This document shows, in pieces, positions 4,361 through 45,782 of a stretch of 64,000 nt of DNA (positions are counted from its first letter, which is position 1; every line of letters starts with the position of its first letter). The DNA lies in contig PAPR01000025.1 of the NCBI GenBank assembly GCA_002709085.1, positions 1-64,000 on the forward strand. Direction: 5' to 3'. The DNA is from Pseudooceanicola sp. (GTDB lineage: Bacteria > Pseudomonadota > Alphaproteobacteria > Rhodobacterales > Rhodobacteraceae). A program made the position numbers and the translations under genes. A model generated the notes under the pieces. It ran no database searches and was not told the DNA's origin. It worked only from the letters and a program-made list of their open reading frames with translations.

Positions 4361-5725
4361 ATGGCCAAACCCCAAGTCTCTTTCACCTGCCAATCCTGCG
4401 CCGCCCGCTCCAACAAATGGGCAGGGCAATGCGACGCCTGCGGCGAATGGAACACCATTGTCGAGGAAACTCCGCTGTCCGCCGGACCCGGCAAGGCCTT
4501 GAAAGGCGCGCGCGGACGCAGGCTGACACTCACTGACCTCGCGACCAAAGAAGCGCCGCCGCCGCGCAGTTCCTCCGGCATGGACGAATTCGACCGCGTG
4601 CTCGGCGGCGGGCTGGTCCCTGCCTCGGCCATTCTGGTCGGCGGCGATCCGGGAATCGGCAAATCCACCCTGCTCTTGCAAGCAGCGGCAAGGTTCGCGA
4701 TGGCGGGGCTCAAGACGTTCTATATCTCGGGCGAGGAAGCCTCGGCGCAGGTCCGCCTGCGCGCGGCCCGACTGGGGCTGACGGATGCGCCGGTAAAACT
4801 CGCGACCGAAACCTCGCTGCGCGACATCATGACGACGCTGGACGAAGAGCGGCCCGACCTCGTCATCATCGATTCGATCCAGACCATGTGGTCGGACAAC
4901 GTGGAAAGCGCGCCCGGCTCTGTCTCCCAGGTTCGTGCCACGGCGCAAGAGCTGACCACCTTCGCCAAGCGGCGAGGATCAGCCGTTGTCCTCGTCGGCC
5001 ACGTCACCAAGGAAGGGCAGATCGCTGGTCCGCGCGTGGTCGAGCATATGGTCGATACCGTGCTCTATTTCGAGGGTGAGCGCGGGCACCAGTTCCGCAT
5101 CCTGCGCAGCGTCAAAAATCGCTTTGGCCCGGCGGACGAGATCGGTGTGTTCGAGATGACCGGCAGCGGGTTGGCCGAGGTCACGAATCCCTCGGCGCTG
5201 TTCCTGTCCGAACGTGGCAAGCCCGCACCGGGGTCCGTCGTCTTTGCCGGGATCGAGGGGACGCGCCCGGTTCTGGTGGAATTTCAGGCCCTTGTCGCCC
5301 CGACCCCGCATAGCCAGCCGCGCCGGACCGTCGTGGGCTGGGATGGCGGGCGGTTGGCGATGATCCTCGCCGTGCTGGAATCGCGCTGCGGCATCCCCTT
5401 CACGGGTCTCGACGTCTACCTCAACGTCGCAGGTGGTCTGAAGGTCAGCGAGCCGGCGGCGGATCTGGCGGTGGCCGCGGCGATCCTGTCAGCGCGCGAG
5501 GACGTCGCCCTGCCTGCGGACAGCGTGGTTTTCGGCGAAATCTCTCTTTCTGGCGCGCTTCGGCCCGTCGGACAGACCGAAAACAGGTTGAAAGAAGCGG
5601 CAAAACTTGGTTTCACGTCCGCAATAGCCCCGGCCGGTGGAAAAATCACCGGGCGAGAGGGCATGAGCCTGCGCGAAATGCCGGATTTGACGGCAGTTGT
5701 GGGCGAAGTATTCGGCGCAGGCTAG
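4361..5725 (+). CDS. radA: DNA repair protein RadA
   Basis: RecA-like ATPase that helps process recombination intermediates (branch migration). The 454-residue product has an N-terminal zinc finger with C10-x2-C13 and C24-x2-C27, Walker A GGDPGIGKS (about 94-102), the RadA-specific KNRFG motif, and a C-terminal Lon-protease-like domain. An in-frame TTG at 4325 would add 12 residues, but homology begins at MAKPQVSFTCQSC. cvpA follows 21 bp downstream, a spacing that suggests cotranscription; radA-cvpA-purF order is familiar in Rhodobacteraceae. Confidence 0.95.
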   Translation: MAKPQVSFTCQSCAARSNKWAGQCDACGEWNTIVEETPLSAGPGKALKGARGRRLTLTDLATKEAPPPRSSSGMDEFDRVLGGGLVPASAILVGGDPGIGKSTLLLQAAARFAMAGLKTFYISGEEASAQVRLRAARLGLTDAPVKLATETSLRDIMTTLDEERPDLVIIDSIQTMWSDNVESAPGSVSQVRATAQELTTFAKRRGSAVVLVGHVTKEGQIAGPRVVEHMVDTVLYFEGERGHQFRILRSVKNRFGPADEIGVFEMTGSGLAEVTNPSALFLSERGKPAPGSVVFAGIEGTRPVLVEFQALVAPTPHSQPRRTVVGWDGGRLAMILAVLESRCGIPFTGLDVYLNVAGGLKVSEPAADLAVAAAILSAREDVALPADSVVFGEISLSGALRPVGQTENRLKEAAKLGFTSAIAPAGGKITGREGMSLREMPDLTAVVGEVFGAG

Positions 5726-40426: not shown

Positions 40427-40774
40427 CTACCATCCGGCGCATTCCCCACGCATGACAAGGGCGCCGTTGACGATGGGCAACTGCGCATCCTCAACATCCG
40501 GCGACACGACCCAGGTCAGATCGGACCGGCCAAACTGGCGAATGCAATATTCGTTGGCTTTCTGACGAGCAGCTTCGCGCGCACCGATGAGCGACCTGCC
40601 CGCGTCATTGACCGTGACGCCAAAGGCCGCACGGTCGTCGCGATTGCGGTCGAGCTTTACCCGGAAGAAATGTCCGTCATAAGCTTCGCGATTGCCGAAA
40701 GGATTTCCGCCGTTCTTTGCGCAAGCGCTCAGCGCCGTCATCGCAACGAGGGCAAGGATCAGGGTGCGCGTCAT
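40427..40774 (-). CDS. Small lipoprotein upstream of nuoG
   Basis: The 115-residue product has signal MTRTLILALVAMTALSAC with lipobox LSAC. The mature domain has DGHFFRVKLDRNRDDRAAFGVTV, EAARQKANEYCIRQFGRSDLTW and a C-terminal Cys (GECAGW), giving two cysteines that may pair. No known domain is recognised. The frame extends to 40837 with a Cys-rich non-homologous stretch, so the ATG at 40774 before the signal peptide is used. It follows the 160-residue lipoprotein gene by 64 bp. Confidence 0.7.
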   Translation of the reverse strand: MTRTLILALVAMTALSACAKNGGNPFGNREAYDGHFFRVKLDRNRDDRAAFGVTVNDAGRSLIGAREAARQKANEYCIRQFGRSDLTWVVSPDVEDAQLPIVNGALVMRGECAGW

Positions 40775-40838
40775 GCCGCGTCTCCGCAATACGGCGCGAC
40801 AGGGGAGGTCGCGGGTTTCACAACAAGGATCGCACAAG

Positions 40839-41321
40839 TCATTTGCACACCCCCATCAAGGTCCAGGCGCCATCGATCAGATAGCCGGCCCCATAATACT
40901 TGGTCGCGTCAGTTCCGGCCACCGGGCGGGCGATCAGCGCTGCCTTGGCCGGGGTCCAGCCGGGACGATCCACACAGCTGGCCGAGGCAGCGGCAACCGC
41001 CTTTTCATGCTCGGCCTCCGTCATCGGGTGGCCGTCGGCGTGATTGACCCGCAGCGCCGGAACGCCGCCATCCACAATGGTGAAGGGCGCATCGACCCGT
41101 GTCCCCAGCACCCAGGCATCCGCACGCCGACCCGGCGGTGAGGCCAGCGGCACAAAGGCCACGTCAAACGCGCCCTCGAAGATGTCTACACGAGTTGCCC
41201 CCGCCGCGCGGTCAATCCAGCTGTCGCGGATGCTCGCAGGCGTGCAGGCCGCCAGGCCGGCAGCTGCGACGAGACCCATGACGGACACGGAACGGATATG
41301 GCGCGACAGGCCCATGGTCAT
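40839..41321 (-). CDS. Lipoprotein following nuoF
   Basis: The 160-residue product has a signal peptide ending in lipobox GLAAC (about 22-26), then a domain with [30 protein letters not shown], a SCVDRPGW motif and a C-terminal GVCK. It is not assigned to a known family. The start overlaps the nuoF stop by four bases (41318-41321); an ATG two codons in is an alternative. Like its neighbour it is a predicted lipoprotein with two mature cysteines besides the lipid Cys, which suggests a disulphide. Confidence 0.72.
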
Positions 41322-42604
41322 TCGGCCGCCACGGGGATGCGCTTGTGCTTGATACGGTCTTCGATCACATCGCGGAAGTTGCGGATCAAACCCTGGATCG
41401 GCCAGGCGGCGGCATCGCCGAGGGCGCAGATGGTGTGCCCCTCGACCTGCTTCGTCACGTCCCAGAGCATGTCGATCTCTTCAGGGTCCGCCTCGCCCTT
41501 CACCAGACGCTCCATCACCCGCATCATCCAGCCGGTGCCTTCGCGGCAGGGCGTGCACTGGCCGCAGCTTTCATGCTTGTAGAACTTGGCCAGACGCCAG
41601 ATCGCCTTGATAATATCGGTCTGCTTGTCCATCACGATCACCGCCGCCGTCCCGAGGCCCGAGCCAAGCTCGCCCCTGAGGTAGTCGAAATCCATGACGG
41701 CGTCTTTCATCTTTTCCCCGCGGACACAGGGCACCGACGACCCGCCGGGGATCACCGCCAGCAAGTTGTCCCAGCCGCCGCGAATGCCACCGCAATGCTT
41801 GTCGATCAGCTCTTCAAAGGTGATCGACATCGCCTCTTCGACGACGCAGGGGTTATTGACGTGGCCAGAGATCGCGAACAGCTTGGTACCTGCGTTGTTC
41901 TCCCGCCCGAAGGAGGAGAACCACTCAGGCCCGCGTCGCAGGATGGTCGGCGCAACCGCAATGGATTCCACGTTGTTCACGGTGGTCGGGCAACCGTAGA
42001 GGCCAGCACCGGCCGGGAACGGCGGCTTCATCCGGGGCATGCCCTTGCGCCCTTCGAGCGATTCCAGCAGCGCGGTTTCTTCACCGCAGATATAGGCCCC
42101 TGCGCCGTGGTGCAGGTAGATGTCGAAATCCCAGCCGGACTTCGCCGCATTCGGCCCGACGAGGCCCGCGTCGTAGCATTCATCGATCGCGATTTGCAGC
42201 GCCTCACGCTCGCGGATGTATTCACCGCGCAGGTAGATGTAGCAGGCGTTTGCGTTCATCGCGAAAGAGGCGATCAGGCACCCTTCGATCAAGGTGTGGG
42301 GATCGTGGCGCATGATCTCCCGGTCCTTGCAGGTGCCGGGCTCGGATTCATCGGCGTTGACCACCAAATAGGCGGGACGGCCATCGCTTTCCTTCGGCAT
42401 GAAGGACCACTTGAGCCCGGTCGGGAAGCCAGCGCCCCCCCGGCCCCGCAGACCCGAGGCCTTCATCTGGTCGATGATCCAGTCGCGACCCTTCTGGATA
42501 ATGCCAGCGGTTCCATCCCAATGGCCACGGGCCTGCGCGCCCTTGAGCGAGCGGTCGTGCATCCCGTAGAGATTGGTGAAGATGCGGTCCTGATCCTTGA
42601 GCAT
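41318..42604 (-). CDS. nuoF: NADH-quinone oxidoreductase subunit F
   Basis: NADH- and FMN-binding subunit, electron entry point of complex I; 428 residues. [20 protein letters not shown] binds FMN and [23 protein letters not shown] is the second nucleotide motif, and [11 protein letters not shown] plus the later HTICALGD Cys bind cluster N3. It starts 3 bp after the DUF5337 stop. Confidence 0.96.
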
Positions 42605-42607
42605 GCT

Positions 42608-42844
42608 CTACCCTTTGTTATCCCGGCCTTGGCCATTCTGGCGCGCGCGCCAAATTTGTGTCGCTACCACCAGCGCCCAGACAAAGGCGGCGATGGCGAG
42701 AAAATCAATCAGAAGCGCATAGCGTCCCGGCAGTCCCAATCGGGGTCCGATCACCTGCGCCGCGATCCAGAGCAGCATTGCCCCGGCGATCACCAGCGCC
42801 ACCATCCGGCCCTTTCTCGCGTTTGCCTGATCCTGATCAGTCAT
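42608..42844 (-). CDS. DUF5337 small membrane protein
   Basis: The 78-residue protein has two membrane helices (about 16-33 and 44-63: VALVIAGAMLLWIAAQVIG and ALLIDFLAIAAFVWALVVA). It resembles the DUF5337 family of Rhodobacteraceae nuo operons. The ATG at 42844 has GAGG 6 nt upstream; a TTG at 42856, overlapping the upstream stop, is the alternative. It could be an accessory subunit or assembly factor of the membrane arm, but this is inference from position. Confidence 0.72.
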   Translation of the reverse strand: MTDQDQANARKGRMVALVIAGAMLLWIAAQVIGPRLGLPGRYALLIDFLAIAAFVWALVVATQIWRARQNGQGRDNKG

Positions 42845-42852
42845 ATGTTGCC

Positions 42853-43992
42853 TCAATAGACGCCGCCATCAGAGGCGCGCTTTGAGAATTCGGTTTCGCC
42901 ACCGGCGGCAAGCGTCTTGGCCTGCTCGACCCAGGTGTCGCGCATCACGCGGCCCTTGGCGCCTTTGACGTTCTGTTCGACCCAGGCCGCCTCGTCCGCT
43001 GTCCAGGTCGCGATCTGATCAAAGTGGTAGTAGCCCGCCGTATTCAGCGCGGCGTTCAGCTTGGGGCCTACGCCCTTGATCCACCTCAGATCATCCGCGC
43101 CGCCTGCGCGTGGTGCGGCGAGGCCCTCGGGCTTTGTCCCTGCGGCGATGGCGGCGGTTTCATCGGCGACCACCGGCACAGCGGCCGGGGGATCCGCAGG
43201 GGTGGCGATGTTGGTGCCGCCCTCGGACTGGATGTCGGCGATACCCTCTTCGGCAATTTTCGGTTCGGCGGTTGGCGTGGGCTTAGCGGTTGGCGTTTCC
43301 ACGGATTTTGTCGCGACGGGCGCGTCGGCGTCGGAAGGCGCGTCGTCGGGGGCAGCTTTGGCGGCGGAATTGGTTTCATGCGCCACAGTATCTGCAGAGG
43401 TGGTCTTGGCAGGCGTCTCAGGCGCTGATTCGGCCAGCTCAGCTTTGACAGACCCGTCCGTGTCCGCCGTGGAATCGGCCTTGGCTACAGCAGGCTTTGT
43501 CGGTGGGGTCGGTGAATCCTCAGTCCGGGCTCCGCTTGCTGGCGAGGGTGTCGTCGTGCCTTCGCTGGCCGTGCCATTCAGACCTGCCTGACCCGCGTCC
43601 GTCGAGGAGACGGGCGTCACGCTTTCGCTTGGTCCCTGCGAAGGCTCATCCGGCGTCGTCGCCGGCGGCTCTACCGGTTCAACCTCTGGTGCAGCGGGGG
43701 CGGTGGTCGGGACGGTCGAGACCGGCGGAACCGAAGGGGTCACCGCGCCGGGGGTCGTCGCAGTGCCCGTCGATTGCGCGCTTGTCGAGCCGGTCGATTG
43801 GCCGGTCATCGTCATGGTCGCGTCATCACCACCGCACAGGAAGCGAGTGAGCAAGATGCCCACGCCCGCGGCAATTACAACGGCAAGGATCAGGACAAAG
43901 AGGAACCACATCGCACCAGTCATCAGCACGAGAGCGACAATGCCCACGAATGCAGCGATGACCCAGCAGATCATTTTGCAATTATTGCCCAT
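42853..43992 (-). CDS. Membrane protein with disordered linker and NuoE-shared C-terminal domain
   Basis: The 379-residue product has two membrane helices at the start (about 7-50), a Cys/Gly spot (FLCGGDD), a long low-complexity Thr/Pro/Ala/Glu linker (about 60-290), and a C-terminal helix-hairpin-helix-like domain (about 290-379; LRWIKGVGPKLNAALN). The last 89 residues align by hand at about 60% identity with the C-terminus of the adjacent NuoE. It was probably formed by duplication of that tail. Its role is unknown; it may be an anchored partner of NuoE. It starts 27 bp after nuoE. Confidence 0.72.
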   Translation of the reverse strand: MGNNCKMICWVIAAFVGIVALVLMTGAMWFLFVLILAVVIAAGVGILLTRFLCGGDDATMTMTGQSTGSTSAQSTGTATTPGAVTPSVPPVSTVPTTAPAAPEVEPVEPPATTPDEPSQGPSESVTPVSSTDAGQAGLNGTASEGTTTPSPASGARTEDSPTPPTKPAVAKADSTADTDGSVKAELAESAPETPAKTTSADTVAHETNSAAKAAPDDAPSDADAPVATKSVETPTAKPTPTAEPKIAEEGIADIQSEGGTNIATPADPPAAVPVVADETAAIAAGTKPEGLAAPRAGGADDLRWIKGVGPKLNAALNTAGYYHFDQIATWTADEAAWVEQNVKGAKGRVMRDTWVEQAKTLAAGGETEFSKRASDGGVY

Positions 43993-44019
43993 CTGTCCGT
44001 CCCCTTAGCTGTCAGTGTT

Positions 44020-45468
44020 TCAGTCGTAGACGTCGCCTTTTTTCACCCGACCGGAAAATTCGGTGGACCCGCCATCCGCGAGGATACGGGCTTGTTCGAC
44101 CCATTTGTCGCGGCTGGCGCGGCCCTTGAACCCCTTGAGGTTGAGATCGACCCAGGCCAGTTCGGCTTCCGTGAACCGCGCGATCTGATCGAAATGGTAG
44201 ATACCCATGTCGTTGCACATCTTTTCCAGTGCAGGACCGATGCCCTTGATCTGCTTGAGGTTATCTGCGCCACCTTCGCGCGGAGCGCTCAGAGCCGCGG
44301 GCTTCGTGCCCTCCGACGCGGCGCTGTCCGCTACGACGCTGCCGCTTCCGGTGCTCTTTGGCGCGGCACTCTCCGGCGCGGGATTTTCGGTCGGCTTGCC
44401 CCCTGCCCCGGTCGCTGTCGATTTGGCATCCGGCGCGGTCGCTTGGGTTTCAGCGTGAGAAGTCGTCGTATCCGCCTCCGGCGTGGTCGCATCGTCCGTC
44501 GCCTCGACCTCGGGATCGGTGGCGGTCTCCGCGCCCTTCACCTGGCTTGTCGCCTCGGGTACCGGGTCGCTCTCACCGGAGGACACGGTTGCGCCGTCGC
44601 CTTCAGGCTCGCGCTTGGAGATGGGCCGCGCTTCGGAATCGGCCTGCGCCTCCTGCTCCGTCACCCCGGTCTTGTCGGCGGGCGCACCCTCGGCAGGCCG
44701 GGGCTCATCGCGAAGCGCACCGCCCCTCGGGTCCTCGACTGCCGGCGCCTCGGGGCGCGCCGTGTTCAACCAGGGAGTCAGGATGGGAACTTCGCTGCCA
44801 TCGATCCGCTTGACCGTATCGCCCAGCTCTGTCGCCAGCGCGACGGAGGCGTTGTGCTGCGTGCGCCCGCTTTCGTATTCGGTCAGCGACGTGAGGCCCT
44901 TGAGCGGCTCGGCGGCGTAGCGTCCGTTCTGCGGACCCGGCGTAGGCACCTTGCCCGCCGCCAATTCCGCGATGATCTCGCGCAGGCGGTCGGCGGTCAG
45001 ATCTTCGTAGTAATCCTTGCCAATCTGGGCCATCGGCGCGTTGGCGCAGGCCCCGAGGCATTCGACCTCTTCCCATGAGAACTTGCCATCAGCGGAAACC
45101 TGATGCGCCTTGGGGGCGATCAGTTCCTGACAGACCGCCACGAGGTCTTCGGCGCCGCAGATCATGCATGACAGGGTGCCGCAAATCTGGATGTTCGCAA
45201 TGGACCCGACAGGTTGCAGCTGAAACATGAAGTAGAATGTCGCGACTTCAAGCGCCCGAATATAGGCCATGCCCAGCATCTCGGCGATATGTTCGATCGC
45301 CGGACGGGTCAGCCAGCCCTCCTGCTCCTGCGCGCGCCACAACAGCGGAATGATGGCCGAGGCCTGACGGCCCTCGGGGTATTTCGTCACCTGCGCCTCG
45401 GCCCATTTCTGGTTTTCCGGGCTGAAGGCAAAACTGGCCGGTTGGTCTTTGTGAAGGCGACGCAGCAT
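44020..45468 (-). CDS. nuoE: NADH-quinone oxidoreductase subunit E, extended form
   Basis: The N-terminal 210 residues are a standard 24 kDa subunit, with the 2Fe-2S (N1a) cysteines C96, C101, C137 and C141 and [20 protein letters not shown]. Unlike canonical NuoE (about 170-240 residues) this protein has 482: residues about 240-400 are a disordered Ala/Glu/Thr/Pro-rich linker and about 400-482 a helix-hairpin-helix-type domain ([16 protein letters not shown]) shared with the following gene. The start overlaps the preceding lipoprotein stop by one base. Confidence 0.93.
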
Positions 45469-45782
45469 CAGGCACAGGCTCCGGTCGTCAGTTGGACACT
45501 ACCGTCTTCAAGACGGACGGCCTGCTTGTTGGCGATCTTGTAGGCGGTCATTTCGAGGACTTGCTGGCGGCTCATGCCCGTCTGGATTTCGACCGGCAGG
45601 TAATCCTTTTCGCTGCGCATCTTGCACCCGACCGAAGCGACAGCCGCATCATAAGAGGTTACGGCATCCAGCGGCACGCCCTGCGGCGGCATCGCACAGG
45701 CGGCAAGGGACAGAACGGTCAGGCCGAGGGCCACAGTCCGCAGGGAGGTGCGCGAAGCGAGGGGGGAGGTCAATTTGATCAC
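45468..45782 (-). CDS. Small lipoprotein between nuoD and nuoE
   Basis: The 104-residue protein has an N-terminal signal with lipobox LAAC at about 25-28 ([10 protein letters not shown]). The short mature part contains [54 protein letters not shown], with two cysteines near its ends. It is not recognised. The start overlaps nuoD by 4 bases (45779-45782), and the stop overlaps nuoE by one. It is a predicted envelope lipoprotein coupled to complex I expression. Confidence 0.7.

Follow-up and report, generated by a model that had tools for sequence, protein, structure and literature searches.

Protein-O was reported in 2025, on the basis of cryo-EM, as a subunit of the RC-LH1 photosystem of Dinoroseobacter shibae, its function being given as unknown; according to that report (PMC12079452), it has a membrane hairpin (Met8-Cys59) located between RC and LH1, with a Cys10-Cys59 disulfide on the cytoplasmic side, and a C-terminal domain, hereafter the “tail”, that is invisible in the cryo-EM map. 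The same report already places the protein-O gene between nuoE and nuoF and records the NuoE-like end of the protein. A U-shaped membrane hairpin at a similar RC-LH1 site is found in protein-U of Rhodobacter sphaeroides, whose sequence is quite distinct from that of protein-O (PMC12079452); protein-U consists of 53 amino acids, and for this reason lacks the tail, and its description (PMC8564508) places its gene between a transglutaminase and a metallo-hydrolase gene.

In the window, i.e., the whole stretch of 64,000 nucleotides that was analysed, an unusually long nuoE is followed by a gene for a relative of protein-O. The elements of the locus are the following:

44020-45468, minus strand: nuoE open reading frame, 482 amino acids, without internal stop
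44761..45468, minus strand: NuoE core (residues 1-236), thioredoxin-like [2Fe-2S] complex I subunit (Pfam PF01257, E 4.8e-51; 8qby_E)
44293..44760, minus strand: NuoE low-complexity linker (residues 237-392), pLDDT mostly <50 up to residue 383
44023..44292, minus strand: NuoE tail, the C-terminal domain (residues 393-482), AF2 pLDDT 92.7, probably HhH-like by fold and weak Pfam matches
42853-43992, minus strand: second gene (O homologue), 379 amino acids with membrane hairpin, linker and tail, without internal stop
43828..43992, minus strand: membrane hairpin of the O homologue (residues 1-55), two hydrophobic segments, weakly similar to the hairpin of D. shibae protein-O
43978..43980, minus strand: Cys5 of the O homologue, equivalent by pairwise alignment to Cys10 of D. 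shibae protein-O
43834..43836, minus strand: Cys53 of the O homologue, equivalent by pairwise alignment to Cys59 of D. shibae protein-O
43123..43827, minus strand: low-complexity linker of the O homologue (residues 56-290), from the sequence
42856..43122, minus strand: tail of the O homologue (residues 291-379), 61% identical to the NuoE tail (8yy9_O, E 1.7e-32)
42608..42856, minus strand: small DUF5337 gene between the O homologue and nuoF (PF17272, E 7.3e-33), operon context outside the pair of genes sharing the tail
41318..42604, minus strand: nuoF, the next complex I gene, 428-amino-acid open reading frame, context

Little space is left between the genes: 27 bases separate nuoE from the O homologue, whose stop is overlapped by 4 bases by the start of the DUF5337 gene, nuoF coming next, so that the second gene of the window occupies the position of protein-O between nuoE and nuoF, with the DUF5337 gene also interposed. 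The open reading frame at 41318..42604, which we take to be nuoF from recognition of its sequence, served as the NuoF query. Scans for promoters and terminators gave 0 and 4 hits, respectively, against 0.4 and 3.0 expected. Three other small proteins encoded among the nuo genes of the window (45468-45782, 40839-41321 and 40427-40837, minus strand) have lipoprotein-like starts by eye and no Pfam match above cut-off.

Residues 1-236 of the window NuoE match the 239-amino-acid NuoE of Paracoccus denitrificans (8qby_E), which leaves an extension of about 243 residues. AF2 modelling of the full-length protein places most of residues 231-383 under pLDDT 50, and averages over blocks of ten residues reach pLDDT 88-98 between 391 and 480, in keeping with the initial annotation, which had described an extension of about 240 residues leading through a low-complexity linker to a helix-hairpin-helix-like domain. 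An artefact or a frameshift can be discarded as the origin of this extension, the reading frame being continuous and a NuoE tail being present in 110 of the 137 usable genera of the family (see below), far from a local peculiarity. The long NuoE is, in fact, an already annotated form: the window protein scores 583.2 bits against NCBIfam NF009040 (PRK12373; cut-off 514), differing from this model in its length (482 amino acids vs 400 model positions) and its longer linker. No paper on a NuoE C-terminal extension was found in the open-licence literature. The idea that the tail docks onto the core of NuoE was rejected on account of the pTM of 0.34 and the disordered linker of the full-length model, which constitute a weak test given the 37-row alignment and the low-scoring core.

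The low-complexity linkers amount to about 155 residues in NuoE and about 235 in the O homologue, and the two tails beyond them share 61% identity across 89 residues (E 6e-31 within their own genome), a result with which the earlier hand count of 54 out of 89 agrees; the neighbouring two-TM protein thus ends in the same domain as NuoE, as had been claimed.

The AF2 model of the tail, obtained with 70 aligned homologous tails, consists of six helices (pLDDT 92.7, pTM 0.84). Foldseek ranked RadA N-termini first, with NusA AR2 among the following entries and a best E of 0.32; in VIA-align the tail superimposed on RadA (3etl) with Z 6.7 over 61 residues at 2.6 Å and on NusA AR2 (6ib8_C) with Z 6.3 over 63 residues at 2.5 Å, values that the tool itself warns are common at this level and that fall in the middle range for a small helical structure, the ranking covering the families in the fold lists compared. 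Weak Pfam matches (E up to 0.1) to HHH_5 and Cdd1 occur in 64 and 65 of the 70 tails, respectively, the window NuoE tail remaining under the gathering cut-offs (15.3 bits vs 27 and 17.1 vs 25.5). We are therefore moderately sure that the tail is helix-hairpin-helix-like: of the shared HHH-like domain initially proposed, the sharing is firm, whereas the fold assignment stands as the best predicted match at moderate scores.

Nucleic-acid binding is usual, though not universal, for helix-hairpin-helix domains, and the RadA and polymerase entries of the fold list are DNA-binding proteins. The tail might accordingly bind RNA or DNA and tie membrane complexes to ribosomes, mRNA or the nucleoid. This reading, to which the HhH-like fold, the RadA N-terminus as top structural match (Z 6.7) and the conserved basic positions of the tail lend some weight, is also favoured by a related domain at the C-terminus of ribosomal protein L21 in seven genomes. 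It is nevertheless unlikely, and the carriers that are membrane proteins do not favour it; the mean net charge of the tails (-1.5 in 113 NuoE and -0.8 in 88 O proteins, zero in both window tails) is near neutral and may speak against it as well, if only as a hint.

The L21 copies emerged from a profile search of 12 genomes in which the nine copies read outside nuo were seven L21 ends (assigned in one case with NCBIfam and in six by eye) and two membrane proteins, one from G045 and one from G123. The tail matches the C-terminal parts of the L21, S2 and phasin PhaH models (NF008915, NF008916, NF008966, NF045508) with E from 1e-11 to 1e-20; compared with it, the seven L21 copies have no TEFS...VY end and, except in G123, no HFDQ-like stretch.

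Further carriers are membrane proteins. Among 78 named loci, 73 lie in nuo and the other 5 (L220, L235, L252, L270, L276; ~4554-5270) encode a protein that is anchored in the membrane, has a stretch resembling a coiled coil and carries the same tail, an OmpA-domain gene ending at most 40 bases upstream in 5/5. In nine genomes (e.g., G020, G025 and G086; L054, L058 and L118) the interval from nuoE to nuoF contains a third gene coding for this domain; its product has no membrane segment by the hydropathy rule and, in several cases, a phasin-like start by eye.

As to the second gene of the window, its tail matches chain O of the D. shibae RC-LH1 photosystem (8yy9_O, ABV93056.1) with E 1.7e-32, and the PDB chains matched by this tail occur only in 8yy9, 8yz2, 9jpb, 9km0 and 9wqv, no complex I structure being among these. 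The two proteins share the nuoE/nuoF location, the two-helix hairpin ended by cysteines, the long linker and the tail, and differ in length (239 amino acids in D. shibae, 379 in the window, where the linker is longer) and in the hairpin, whose similarity is weak (z 3.8, with 2 of 1000 shuffles scoring as high; best phmmer E 0.57 with the window hairpin alone as query). Cys5 and Cys53 flank the window hairpin and align with Cys10 and Cys59 of protein-O. By its position, its two cysteines and its tail, the second gene belongs with protein-O, of which it is the positional homologue, a kinship that the initial annotation had missed.

The 239-amino-acid O of G035 matches 8yy9_O end to end over its first 76 residues (E 7e-46), which identifies G035, as far as this sequence tells, as D. 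shibae or a very close relative; its hairpin is matched by that of “Protein LRC” in 9lts/9ltv (E 2e-34), the source of which is probably the species of G035 or one near it. Chain a of 9wqv, an entry that includes a reaction-centre M chain, is named “NADH:ubiquinone oxidoreductase 41 kd complex I subunit” and resembles the window protein in its tail and, by eye, in its hydrophobic N-terminus; unlike the latter, it ends shortly past the domain, without the TEFS...VY end.

The distribution of both carriers was surveyed in 149 genera of the family. Stretches from nuoE to nuoF were fetched for 140 of them, the window serving as one more; G022, G032, G102, G119, G122, G124, G133 and G147 were left out (no strong NuoE match, none listed, or a contig end), and the removal of G028, G098 and G144 (no nuoF) and of G116 (NuoE start missing) left 137 usable genera. 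Membrane segments were assigned by a simple hydropathy rule, which missed the O of G016; this genome was counted with O in the main counts and without O in those of RC type, cysteine pair, tree changes and linker motifs. The tree was built from NuoE and NuoF only.

The NuoE tail is present in 110 of the 137 genera and O, which adjoins nuoE, in 88; 77 have both, 33 the NuoE tail only, 11 O only and 16 neither (Fisher p 0.007, kinship ignored; here as elsewhere the p values are nominal, several tests having been made). On the tree, on the other hand, independent pairs change the same way in 5.2 and the opposite way in 3.5 cases (median p 0.75), and the Pagel test yields p 0.013, its rates lying at the limit imposed on them, so that the NuoE tail and O are not clearly linked. 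At least 23 changes for the NuoE tail and at least 33 for O are required by the 137 tips (G016 scored without O).

These data bear on the possibility that the tails of NuoE and O bind each other, O anchoring complex I to the membrane or to RC-LH1. NuoE belongs to the cytoplasmic arm of complex I. O, too, would present its tail to the cytoplasm, judging from the side of its disulfide (PMC12079452), and this common location, the presence of the same domain in the products of adjacent genes and the co-occurrence in 77/137 genera with the above Fisher and Pagel values favour mutual binding. Yet, aside from the near balance of the independent pairs and the Pagel rates at their bound, searches with E up to 0.001 found no second tail copy in 7 of the 33 genomes with the NuoE tail and without O (all 7 at least 94% complete), nor in 6 of the 11 with O and without the NuoE tail (G118 alone among these 6 being only 84% complete). 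Since each tail occurs alone and 7 of these 33 genomes have no second copy, an obligate handshake between the two tails is unlikely; mutual binding appears quite improbable to us. The interpretation given in the initial annotation is partly supported, in that the two tails are one domain; the tether it suggests is not established by these figures.

Outside the family, 95 of 112 genomes have a NuoE-like match and a single one (G215) such a NuoE tail, in a search at E up to 1e-20 that would miss weak tails; a profile search of 20 of these 112 genomes found the domain in 4. A NuoE-O-NuoF arrangement of the Rhodobacteraceae-family type also occurs on a contig titled Hydrogenophaga sp. MAG, a betaproteobacterium (L216, JAGXRS010000250.1), which is probably misbinned.

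Reaction-centre genes (PF00124) were detected in 60 of the 149 genomes, PufC in 24 and PufX in 35; G058 has two reaction-centre gene pairs (C2:745987-747877 and C3:51403-54216), with a PufX match beside one and a PufC match beside the other. Among the usable genera O is present in 41 of 53 phototrophs vs 47 of 84 without detected reaction-centre genes (Fisher p 0.017), with independent pairs at 4.8 to 1.0 (median p 0.22) and Pagel p 0.037, or, when G016 is scored without O, at 4.8 to 0.4 (median p 0.125) and Pagel p 0.017. O leans towards phototrophs, therefore, and the link is weak once kinship is counted. The NuoE tail is instead rarer in phototrophs (37/53 vs 73/84, p 0.026; Pagel p 0.024), so that a photosynthetic role of the NuoE tail is not favoured.

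Some simpler associations could be dismissed. O is no strict marker of phototrophy, in view of the 47/84 genera just mentioned; nor does it mark one type of reaction centre, occurring in 22/29 genera of the PufX type, 17/20 of the PufC type, 1/1 with both and 1/3 with neither (G016 without O). Finally, the cysteine pair is not RC-specific, being found in 37/46 O proteins from genera without RC, 14/17 of the PufC type, 6/23 of the PufX type, 0/1 with both and 0/1 with neither.

The genus of the window illustrates the point further. Whereas the host of protein-O has RC-LH1, PF00124 has no match in the window's genome (77% complete) nor in any of the 22 genomes of its genus, this one included, 20 of which are at least 90% complete. 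O is nonetheless found in 19 of the 22, and all 19 proteins show, by eye in their N-termini, one cysteine ahead of the first helix and another at the end of the second, the hairpin between the two being variable. PF00124 not having been detected in these genomes, O is hardly likely to be an RC-LH1 subunit here; as the genus keeps O without detected photosystem genes, O probably has another job besides the photosystem, and its retention, often with the cysteine pair, where no photosystem was detected suggests that its role is probably wider than photosynthesis.

One such role would be that of an accessory subunit of complex I, with the use of O in RC-LH1 being secondary in phototrophs and the NuoE tail aiding O assembly. 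The location of O inside the complex I operon and its retention in 47/84 genera without detected RC genes and in 19/22 genomes of the genus would suit this explanation, but O was identified in RC-LH1 (PMC12079452) and in no complex I structure found, and it leans to phototrophs (41/53 vs 47/84, p 0.017; kinship-aware median p 0.22); altogether, we regard it as rather doubtful, with little more than a slim chance of being right.

The tail is strongly constrained. An alignment of 70 tails, taken from NuoE, O and related membrane proteins, has 36 columns with an identity of 90% or more, and the linkers vary in length and composition; conservation of the tail columns while linkers drift indicates purifying selection on the tail, and the conserved columns are largely common to the tails of NuoE and O. 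This constancy argues against the tail being an almost neutral appendage, devoid of a specific ligand and propagated by duplication and recombination, an idea for which the unrelated carriers, the numerous changes on the tree (at least 23 and 33) and the four copies in one frame of G017 might plead and which we deem very unlikely. The four matches to the tail profile (G017:C53:9689-11287) lie inside one frame that is open over 1352 residues, an array seen in no other genome searched.

Some exchange of tails does occur. In 76 genomes the likeness of NuoE and O tails is 0.659 within the same genome vs 0.617 across genomes, a difference reached in 0 of 2000 permutations, part of which could reflect shared descent; furthermore, the DNA of the two tails is 97% identical in G103 and 87% in G148, which suggests gene conversion. 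Of the 76 O tails, 55 are nearest to another O, 17 to the NuoE of another genome and 4 to the NuoE of their own genome, and since O tails are mostly nearest to other O tails the exchange must be episodic. Strong concerted evolution is excluded by the same 4/76 and by the own NuoE tail ranking first among NuoE tails in only 7/76.

Within the linkers, a motif LxGQxELxxRKGxWxY, first noticed by eye and then counted, occurs in 21 of 88 O proteins and in 7 NuoE proteins (e.g., G035, L067); among the 34 genomes scored without O (G016 included), 6 have this motif or DxDxDGxxEG on NuoE, vs 2 of 76 with O (p 0.010). Neither was seen in the window.

The NuoE tail and O of the window are a variant of a described kind, namely protein-O together with a long NuoE. 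What appears to be new is the retention of O and of its disulfide cysteines where no photosystem is detected, along with the evidence on distribution and exchange; no further record of these points was seen in print, as far as the open-licence literature is concerned.

The reading we tentatively prefer, while granting it somewhat less than an even chance, is that the tail is a docking module. A strongly constrained domain borne on varying leashes by a complex I subunit and by a membrane hairpin reads as such a module. The tail would be a small protein-binding helix-hairpin-helix domain on a long flexible cytoplasmic leash, carried by complex I through NuoE and by the O hairpin protein, and would bind one cytoplasmic partner. 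Since each carrier can be the sole copy in a nearly complete genome, this ligand would be a third protein, likelier than the partner tail; since the same residues are conserved on both carriers and tails are occasionally exchanged, it is probably the same for both. Complex I and the membrane assembly holding O would thereby be gathered into one neighbourhood, the assembly being RC-LH1 in phototrophs and, in the genus of the window, one other than RC-LH1.

Consistent with a shared partner are the presence of D. shibae O and of the O-like protein of 9wqv as chains in reaction-centre structures, the adjacency of O and nuoE in 88/137 genera and the fact that a near fold, NusA AR2, binds a protein, SuhB, in 6ib8. 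On the other hand, the tail lineages of O and NuoE are mostly separate, so that the two may have different ligands, and RadA N-termini and polymerases, i.e., parts of DNA-binding proteins, score at least as well as NusA AR2.

The more specific proposition that in phototrophs the tail docks complex I and the RC-LH1 core in one membrane neighbourhood, another assembly taking the place of the latter in non-photosynthetic lineages, seems to us fairly improbable. If it were true, this docking would bring the oxidation of NADH and the light-driven reduction of quinone together at a single quinone pool; the tail common to NuoE and O offers a concrete handle for finding out if the complexes of respiration and photosynthesis have a partner in common.
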